Below are positions 6,528-8,080 of a DNA stretch of 20,109 nt, one piece after another. The stretch's first letter is position 1. Every line of letters begins with the position of its first letter. The stretch spans positions 1 to 20,109 of IMG/VR virus record IMGVR_UViG_3300050119_000046; one strand, given 5' to 3'. The stretch comes from a virus. A program made the translations under genes and the position numbers. Under the pieces are notes generated by a model. The model did no database searches, was not told where the DNA came from, and saw nothing but the letters and a program-made list of their open reading frames with translations.

Positions 6528-6950
6528 TCAGGCGTCCAGTTTATCAACTTTGACGATGGCACTGGCAGGGATTGATCCTGGATGCCAATAGGCTTCCATA
6601 GAGGCCGCGTCCTCATCGACGTGCAGCGTTGAGAAGTCGTCGATCTGTATTTCAAGCAGGATTGGCTTAGCGTTGCCTAAAGGTGCGGGAGCATCCTCGG
6701 ACCTATAAAACCCTTGATAGAGCGGGAAGTTCACCTTCTGTCCGGGGAGTGCATTCAGATAGCTCGCGCGAAGAATTGCGAATGCTTCAGCCGTCTCGCG
6801 CGAGGTGCTTAGATACACTCCGGGATGGGTGGGTGGGACTCGATCTCCGTAAGATGTTTCAACCTGAAAGATGCGTGTCTTGGACGGCTTGAGCCCATTC
6901 TTTTGGATGGACGGTAAATAGGTGCTGGCGGTGCCGTGGTATAGCAGCAT
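6528..6950 (-). CDS. ADP-ribosyltransferase / RNA 2'-phosphotransferase-like protein, 140 aa
   Basis: The start is the ATG at 6950 (MLLYHGTAS), which has GAGG six bases upstream; the longer frame to 7070 would run through the hammerhead ribozyme and is rejected. The sequence has the layout of small ART-fold proteins: LLYHGT near the N-terminus (the H-x-T of the NAD-binding site), ILSIQKNG-type helix (SIQKNGLKPSK), HPGVYLSTSRETAEAFA, and a C-terminal PILLEIQIDD...YWHPGSIPASAIVKV. Phage proteins of this type are often annotated as KptA/Tpt1-like or PARP-like, and could modify RNA or host proteins with NAD. A catalytic Glu is not certain. The gene lies behind a ribozyme and a 6-bp hairpin (6966-6983). 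Confidence 0.68.
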   Translation of the reverse strand: MLLYHGTASTYLPSIQKNGLKPSKTRIFQVETSYGDRVPPTHPGVYLSTSRETAEAFAILRASYLNALPGQKVNFPLYQGFYRSEDAPAPLGNAKPILLEIQIDDFSTLHVDEDAASMEAYWHPGSIPASAIVKVDKLDA

Positions 6951-7001: not shown

Positions 7002-7053
7002 GGACTCATCAGCACGCGCATTACGCGTGGAGCGGGCGGACCCGCTTTCGTCC
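7002..7053 (-). ncRNA. Type II hammerhead ribozyme 1 (52 nt)
   Basis: Reading the minus strand from 7053: stem II 5' strand GGAC (7053-7050); core GAAA (7049-7046); stem III GCGGG/CCCGC (7045-7041, 7036-7032) with a 4-nt loop; U (7031) pairing with the last core A; C17 (7030), the expected cleavage position; stem I CACGCG/CGCGTG (7029-7024, 7018-7013) with a 5-nt loop; core CTGATGA (7012-7006); stem II 3' strand GTCC (7005-7002). Every conserved hammerhead nucleotide is present, including the G-C pair next to the core. Stem II is the open stem, which defines type II. It starts on the base after the TAA of the upstream gene. Cleavage would leave a downstream RNA whose 5' end is immediately the stem I hairpin. 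Confidence 0.94.
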
Positions 7054-7269
7054 TTATTCGTCGCAGTCAAGAGTGAAGCTATTAGCTTTTTGATCGTAGT
7101 AGGCTTGCACGTTGCACGGGGGTGGGGCGATGCTTATTAGGGCGCGTGCTGGCGGTTGGAGAACTTCTACCGCCCAATTAGCTCCAATACATGTAGTTCC
7201 GATGTACAGTCCAGCAACTACAGCGATGAGGAAGAATTTCTCGGAGTGATTCTTGAGGTAGGTTTTCAT
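7054..7269 (-). CDS. Small membrane-anchored protein, 71 aa
   Basis: A positively charged start (MKTYLKNHSEK) is followed by a hydrophobic helix at about residues 12-31 (FFLIAVVAGLYIGTTCIGA), then a Pro-rich, Cys-containing tail (PPPCNVQAYYDQKANSFTLDCDE) that would face outward. This is a signal-anchor layout. The start at 7269 has AAAGGAAAACC before it, 16 nt after the previous stop. Its N-terminus resembles that of the 38-aa protein at 9028-9144, so the two may be related. Its TAA stop is directly followed by hammerhead ribozyme 1. Function unknown. Confidence 0.72.
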   Translation of the reverse strand: MKTYLKNHSEKFFLIAVVAGLYIGTTCIGANWAVEVLQPPARALISIAPPPCNVQAYYDQKANSFTLDCDE

Positions 7270-7598: not shown

Positions 7599-7775
7599 TC
7601 AGGCCGCCTTTCTCGCCACTAACCCAGCTTCGATCAGTGAAGCGGCTGTGCGGCCATAGGAGCCTTGCAACTGCCATGCTAGGCCGCTGTTGACGAGTTC
7701 TTGGAAGAGTTCAATAGTTGCATCCTCGTCCAAGTCTCCCTGTTCATACGCGATGATTTTGTCTACTTGATCCAT
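7599..7775 (-). CDS. Conserved small phage protein (VDKIIAYEQG type), 58 aa
   Basis: The product begins MDQVDKIIAYEQGDLDED and continues with IELFQELVNSGLAWQLQGSY and GRTAASLIEAGLV. This is a small helical protein of a type very widespread in tailed phages (I believe Pfam has it as a DUF around DUF7417; the number should be checked). Its function is unknown. The start at 7775 follows a GAGAGGATAAAAATC site and lies 25 nt behind hammerhead ribozyme 2, so its mRNA would start with the ribozyme's stem I hairpin. The downstream gene begins one base after its stop. Confidence 0.85.
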   Translation of the reverse strand: MDQVDKIIAYEQGDLDEDATIELFQELVNSGLAWQLQGSYGRTAASLIEAGLVARKAA

Positions 7776-7800: not shown

Positions 7801-7852
7801 GGTCTCGTCAGTGTGAGCTTTACCCACAGAGCCCATTGAAGGGCTTTCGACC
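7801..7852 (-). ncRNA. Type II hammerhead ribozyme 2 (52 nt)
   Basis: Minus strand from 7852: stem II GGTC (7852-7849); core GAAA (7848-7845); stem III GCCC/GGGC (7844-7841, 7834-7831) with a 6-nt loop; U (7830); C17 (7829), the expected cleavage site; stem I TGTGGG/CTCACA (7828-7823, 7817-7812, one G-U) with a 5-nt loop; core CTGACGA (7811-7805), matching CUGANGA; stem II GACC (7804-7801). All core positions agree. The stems differ in sequence from ribozyme 1 while the core is kept, which is covariation. It has the same 52-nt length and also starts directly after a TAA stop, in the context AATAAGG-N-C-GAAA-GC shared with ribozyme 1. Confidence 0.94.
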
Positions 7853-8080
7853 TTATTTGACAATCTCTTCGAGCGATTCCGAGACTTCTGCAACCGCCTC
7901 AGTTTGTTCGCCTGATGCGAGTATCACGCGGGAGAGAATACCGCCCGCCGCAAGCTCCGTGCCTAGATGCGACAGATAGAGCTTGAAAAGGTATTCGCAA
8001 CCTTGGATTGCTGCAATCGCCGCAATGATGATGAGCGAGTGAAGGATGATAGAGCGGGTGCGCTTGCTAATTCTGTGCAT
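7853..8080 (-). CDS. Small membrane or lipoprotein-like protein, 75 aa
   Basis: I chose the ATG at 8080 (MHRISKRTRS) because GGGGGAGAT precedes it; the longer frame to 8140 lies inside the upstream gene. A basic N-terminus is followed by a hydrophobic segment at about residues 11-26 (IILHSLIIIAAIAAI) and then QGC. This resembles a signal peptide with a lipobox, but Gln at -2 is unusual. The rest is an amphipathic, mildly acidic region (TEAVAEVSESLEEIVK). It overlaps the upstream gene by 14 nt. Its TAA stop is followed at once by hammerhead ribozyme 2. Function unknown. Confidence 0.68.
   Translation of the reverse strand: MHRISKRTRSIILHSLIIIAAIAAIQGCEYLFKLYLSHLGTELAAGGILSRVILASGEQTEAVAEVSESLEEIVK

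Follow-up and report, generated by a model that had tools for sequence, protein, structure and literature searches.

Type II hammerhead ribozymes are common in bacteria, and clusters of them flank genes in prophages (Perreault et al. 2011, PMC3088659). Three prophage arrays cleave in vitro and one in E. coli, processing into shorter mRNAs has been proposed for them, and the majority of type II ribozymes have a loop I/3'-tail pseudoknot, which is not required of all (PMC3088659). A 2017 review noted that hammerhead clusters flank ORFs for small, poorly conserved proteins and called their bacterial role open (PMC6155905). A full-text literature search that covered few subscription papers yielded no subsequent publication dealing with type II hammerheads in phages. 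The locus described here agrees with the bacterial and phage type II ribozymes (PMC3088659, RF02276) in its permutation, core, cleavage rule, phage or prophage setting and gene-flanking clusters. As in the prophage clusters of Agrobacterium, Azorhizobium and Clostridium scindens, several hammerheads flank genes or short gene blocks; however, those clusters mix hammerhead types, whereas both ribozymes in this phage are of type II and abut stop codons, an anchoring that the main text of PMC3088659 does not mention for those clusters. Hammerheads flanking phage genes are thus already known, and the anchoring to stop codons is the notable part.

The window, that is, the whole 20,109-nucleotide stretch analysed (positions 1 to 20,109 of the virus record IMGVR_UViG_3300050119_000046), contains a 52-base type II hammerhead ribozyme at 7852-7801 on the minus strand (copy 2). 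Its sequence reads GGTC-GAAA-GCCC(TTCAAT)GGGC-T-C-TGTGGG(TAAAG)CTCACA-CTGACGA-GACC, and its core is a complete consensus according to the sequence and a motif scan, with CUGANGA, GAA, A15.1-U16.1 and the U-H before the cut, C17 being position 7829. Stem II (GGUC/GACC) is open, and stems I and III are closed by loops, which defines the type II permutation. All of the core segments (GAAA, U-C, and CUGACGA) and the three stems (GGTC/GACC, GCCC/GGGC, and TGTGGG/CTCACA) named in the original prediction are present on this strand, and all three stems pair, stem I with one G-U pair and an optional U-G pair closing the loop. The predicted cut, between 7829 and 7828, likewise lies where it had been placed, 53 nt upstream of the ATG that starts at 7775. 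Copy 2 begins at the very next base after a TAA stop codon. The genes on either side of it run in the same direction and belong to a minus-strand operon made up of small phage genes, with genes taken from simple ORF calls. The features of the region are as follows.

7853..8080, minus: upstream ORF of 75 aa, whose TAA (7855-7853) adjoins copy 2; its homolog in the related phage L508 is 68% identical (ORF call, comparison).
7801..7852, minus: type II hammerhead ribozyme, copy 2 (sequence, motif scan, covariance model).
7849..7852, minus: 5' strand of stem II, GGTC, pairing with 7801-7804 (sequence, pairing in the subfamily).
7845..7848, minus: core GAAA, i.e., G12, A13, A14, and A15.1 (sequence, alignment).
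7831..7844, minus: stem III hairpin GCCC(TTCAAT)GGGC, which would be the 3' end of the upstream mRNA (covariation, product folds).
7829..7830, minus: U16.1 and C17, with predicted cleavage at 7829/7828 (hammerhead rule).
7812..7828, minus: stem I hairpin TGTGGG(TAAAG)CTCACA with a UNANG loop, which would be the 5' end of the downstream mRNA (loop tabulation, product folds).
7805..7811, minus: core CTGACGA (sequence, alignment).
7801..7804, minus: 3' strand of stem II, GACC (sequence, covariation).
7599..7775, minus: downstream ORF of 58 aa, DUF7417, E 7e-21 (domain match).
7054..7269, minus: ORF of 71 aa, whose TAA (7056-7054) adjoins copy 1 (ORF call).
7002..7053, minus: type II hammerhead copy 1, with a predicted cut at 7030/7029 (motif scan, covariance model, L508).
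6528..6950, minus: ORF of 140 aa after copy 1, weakly ADP-ribosyltransferase/Tpt1-like, kept with the ribozyme in L508 (sub-threshold Pfam match, comparison).

Copy 1, at 7053-7002 on the minus strand, belongs to the same subfamily and begins one base after the TAA at 7056-7054. The core bases are kept in both copies and the stems have changed, in line with the earlier description of two ribozymes with a common core and different helices. In the motif scan, these two copies were the sole type II matches in the window, and no type I or type III hammerheads were listed there. When 200 Markov-shuffled windows were scanned on both strands, five loose type II matches appeared, and in none of them did the stems reach the quality of those in the two copies. 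For an independent test, a covariance model was trained on 41 divergent phage and prophage copies, a set that excluded this phage and its relatives; it scored copy 2 (7853-7800) at 56.3 bits (E 1e-13) and copy 1 (7054-7001) at 64.3 bits (E 6e-16), with no further match in the window up to E 10. Neither copy was reported by Rfam release 15 at its cut-off; when short stretches were searched with a relaxed threshold, RF02276 gave copy 1 a score of 20.3 bits, below the gathering cut-off of 37, and did not list copy 2. This miss reflects a limit of the RF02276 model, because verified clusters also escape it: the same model found only three copies in nine loci holding many more. Each sequence and structure criterion that could be tested computationally supports the proposed type II hammerhead identity of copy 2, and its catalytic activity is predicted from these features.

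Among 41 terminase relatives, the ribozyme region was kept only in L508, whose terminase is 88% identical, and in L507, which looks the same as L508 in this region. Loss of the core nucleotides in relatives that keep the gene pair had been named as the outcome that would speak against a ribozyme; in L508, the one close relative found, both ribozymes are present with intact cores. Copy 2 differs there at 2 of 52 bases: one change converts the G-U pair of stem I to A-U, and the other falls at the free position of loop I. In copy 1 of L508, stems I and III are rewritten with pairing kept (GCGGG/CCCGC to CGGGC/GCCCG and CACGCG/CGCGTG to CGGCGA/TCGCCG), stem II and the core are unchanged apart from position 17, where C is replaced by A, and A at this position is permitted by the hammerhead rule. 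The original prediction had also suggested looking for the element at the same gene junction in related phages: both ribozymes were indeed found in L508, but the genes adjoining copy 2 differ there, with a new 29-codon ORF before it, whose TAG extends into the ribozyme's first base, and an unrelated gene after it. The swapped genes and the re-formed stop junction indicate that the ribozyme is kept at a stop-codon junction and not with one fixed gene pair.

The gene after copy 1 (6528-6950, minus) encodes a product with an LYHGT motif that looks like an ADP-ribosyltransferase/Tpt1 fragment, with a sub-threshold Pfam match, and that shares 35% identity with the annotated RNA 2'-phosphotransferase of a Tunturiibacter phage. 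A search for homologs of this gene in viral contigs confirmed none. For the annotated phage homolog, Tunturi_3, no type II hammerhead was found in the 30-kb stretch scanned, and matches to a loose core pattern in its whole genome did not exceed those of the reversed control. A functional tie between the ADP-ribosyltransferase/Tpt1-like gene and 2'-phosphate ends was considered and dropped, since the family match was below the cut-off and the predicted structure was unusable (mean pLDDT 31).

The two copies are members of a larger group. The first four pattern scans of viral and bacterial contigs recovered at least 388 distinct copies with core and pairing in phages and prophages, characterized by a 4-bp stem II preceded by a near-invariant A and a 6-bp stem I with a UNANG loop, a pattern-based recovery that favours copies with fixed geometry. 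Among the 410 raw core matches listed, for which no pairing was demanded, pairing was complete at the five free positions of stem I in 388 (chance <1%) and at the three free positions of stem II in 376. Across 102 representatives less than 80% identical to one another, the inner pair of stem II was fixed and all other stem positions showed several pair types. An alignment of 41 sequences contained two-sided changes at 13 of 14 pairs, and sliding the partner abolished the signal; these sequences had been preselected for pairing, and the 410 raw matches are the cleaner test of covariation. Among the 370 listed copies in which both stems pair, stem II was always preceded by A (370/370) and a fifth stem II pair was avoided (6/370), neither of which the search pattern demanded. 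The stem I arm was 17 nt long in 176 of the 189 listed copies that matched a pattern with loop I free, some of these loci having originally been fetched with loop-I patterns. Loop I started with U in nearly all of the listed copies, UNANG being the commonest form.

This fixed architecture (4-bp stem II, flanking A, and 17-nt stem I arm) distinguishes the UNANG subfamily from published type II ribozymes, and the failure of the window copies to reach the RF02276 cut-off is a further difference. The window copies and the subfamily also depart from the published consensus (PMC3088659) in having no general loop I/3'-tail pseudoknot. Four or more possible pairs between loop I and the 3' tail occurred in 67 of the 372 listed UNANG copies, against 55.6 with shuffled flanks, and 19 of 500 flank shuffles reached the observed number; the window copies can form at most two such pairs each. 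A pseudoknot as a general feature of the subfamily was rejected, as it was not clearly above shuffled flanks. The conserved U of loop I and the A after stem II may instead fit the reverse-Hoogsteen contact of types I and III (PMC6155905), so that the loop I-stem II contact would be alike in the UNANG subfamily and in the hammerheads of viroids, satellite RNAs and eukaryotic repeats. Types I and III nevertheless have other permutations and serve circular RNA replication or lie in repeats, whereas the ribozymes of the window lie at phage gene junctions.

Single records were sometimes rich in such copies. In L125 and in L504, a stretch of a few kilobases held nine copies on the same strand, with no matches to the reversed control pattern, and the nine copies of L004 were divided between the two ends of the record. 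The subfamily was also observed in genomes of cultured bacteria, namely Phycicoccus jejuensis NRRL B-24460 (L355; three copies on one strand within approximately 2.3 kb), Burkholderia (L389 and L412) and Paraburkholderia antibiotica (L393). Six contigs fetched for their type II ribozymes (L123, L124, L149, L158, L173, and L280) had type I and/or type III hammerheads elsewhere, and L124, L149, and L173 had both types.

For 361 of the listed copies, the flanking sequence was long enough to examine the position of the ribozyme relative to genes. In 237 of them (66%), an ORF of at least 50 codons had its stop within -5 to +4 of the 5' edge of the ribozyme; of 3000 positions drawn at random from the same strands, 97 (3%) had a stop in this range. 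Within 150 nt downstream, 300 of the 361 had a Shine-Dalgarno-like site and a start codon, against 955 of the 3000 random positions. In the commonest arrangement (70 listed copies), the stop was a TAG whose A was the conserved flanking A and whose G was the first base of stem II; TAA or TGA ending in the conserved A (46 copies) and TAA two bases earlier (39 copies) were other listed forms. Listed copies that abutted a stop and had a good start site after them lay at a median of 22 nt from the start codon. No description of such anchoring, or of the fixed pseudoknot-free UNANG form, was found in the literature searched, which included the main text of Perreault et al.

We consider it probable (roughly 0.8) that the element is a cis-acting type II hammerhead that cuts multi-gene phage mRNA into shorter, hairpin-capped units. 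The fold, its conservation and covariation, the position at stop codons and the recurrence at gene junctions were obtained here; from them we infer cleavage, the chemistry of the ends and the effects on mRNA stability or expression. Transcription of the minus-strand operon would yield an RNA in which each ribozyme can fold alone, and the 2'-OH of C17 (7829) would attack the next phosphate, separating the 75-aa ORF from the DUF7417 ORF on the polycistronic mRNA. The upstream piece would end with the stop codon, GAAA, the stem III hairpin, and U-C bearing a 2',3'-cyclic phosphate approximately 25 nt past the stop; the downstream piece would begin with a 5'-OH and immediately the stem I hairpin, approximately 50 nt ahead of the start codon. 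Copies 1 and 2 together would divide the operon into separately decaying units. Folding of the predicted cleavage products indicated that both hairpins are stable alone, and from geometry, type II alone among the three permutations leaves a hairpin at both new ends. Capping of both ends would suit the processing of phage mRNA into end-protected units shielded from exonucleases, the role that we favour. Because the loop I/3'-tail pseudoknot speeds typical type II hammerheads, cleavage of the window copies, which lack it, could be slow. Also counting against this role, a single close relative keeps the copies, the region being absent from the other terminase relatives.

A related reading couples cleavage to translation: a ribosome terminating on the upstream gene would keep the ribozyme open by covering stem II, GAAA and some of stem III, and cutting would be confined to times when no ribosome is completing the upstream gene, making the ribozyme a switch and not a constitutive cutter. 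The clustering of stops at the ribozyme edge, often sharing the conserved A, and the re-forming of the stop spacing in L508 beside a different neighbouring ORF point in this direction, but compact phage genomes could place stops there merely to save space, and one third of the listed copies are not at a detected stop codon. We regard this coupling as an attractive but doubtful addition to mRNA processing. The broader proposition, that a widespread and distinct type II subfamily has the upstream stop as its 5' edge, makes a pseudoknot-free UNANG contact, and physically links termination with self-cleavage, is put forward tentatively, as a possibility with the odds still against it.

It is improbable that two ribozymes excise the intervening RNA, which is then ligated or copied, as a circular RNA or mobile cassette. 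The copies do flank small, poorly conserved genes, and their neighbours are swapped between the window and L508; however, it is gene ends that they mark and not the borders of one repeated unit, no repeated cassette was seen, and a search by Perreault et al. for products of splicing or circularization from such arrays was negative (PMC3088659). An equally slight chance attaches to the idea that cutting has been lost and the element persists only as a pair of hairpins with a role in mRNA protection or in translation: the hairpins of stems I and III are stable by themselves and there is no pseudoknot, but the unpaired core bases are kept in both copies and in L508 though the stems change, and CTGANGA and GAAA are fixed across the subfamily with co-occurring pairing. 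A chance match, which might be expected of so short a motif in large databases, is refuted by the independent covariance model and the conservation in L508 and has practically no probability left; the shuffled windows also speak against it.

The putative mRNA-cutting ribozymes would not be this phage's only way of marking junctions, as structured elements of other kinds, and no hammerhead, occupy the junctions farther upstream in the operon. At 9027-8970, 8577-8508, and 8315-8265 (minus), a different repeated element follows directly after a stop and precedes the next start, with a CCCTTAG/CTAAG-type hairpin, AGATG, and finally another hairpin whose loop contains ACC (fold z of -2.5, -5.4, and -3.9, respectively). 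One copy is conserved in L508/L507 (L508 approximately 6030-5970, minus), and a pattern search found it nowhere else. After the ADP-ribosyltransferase-like gene, at 6403-6321 (minus), there is a long hairpin GATGCAATGAGA...TCTCATTGCATC whose 30-nt loop (CAAAGYGCAGNAT..GGGT..TCCC) is conserved; a hairpin with the same loop and compensated stem changes occurs in L508 (approximately 4045-3980, minus), and the pattern scan matched only the record of L508 and one other contig. These junction elements were rejected as a second ribozyme class, their patterns matching only this phage and close relatives and the remainder looking like chance. A repeated TGTCTTACA/TGTAAGACA motif was also observed before the operon (approximately 9212-9190, minus) and near its end (6518-6500, minus), with counterparts in L508 (approximately 6345-6315 and 4078-4065, minus). 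The copy before the operon adjoins a promoter-like TTGACTTGTCTTACA stretch in both phages, and the motif is possibly an operator.

Since the public RNA model misses most of the copies in the loci examined, such ribozymes are under-annotated in phage genomes. A uniform subfamily placed at stops and before starts, with up to nine copies per phage, provides a testable rule of mRNA punctuation and makes the debated purpose of these ribozymes easier to test. If self-cleavage is indeed linked to termination, phages would have in this element a portable form of punctuation, dividing an operon into mRNA units with capped ends and with relative amounts that could be set gene by gene.
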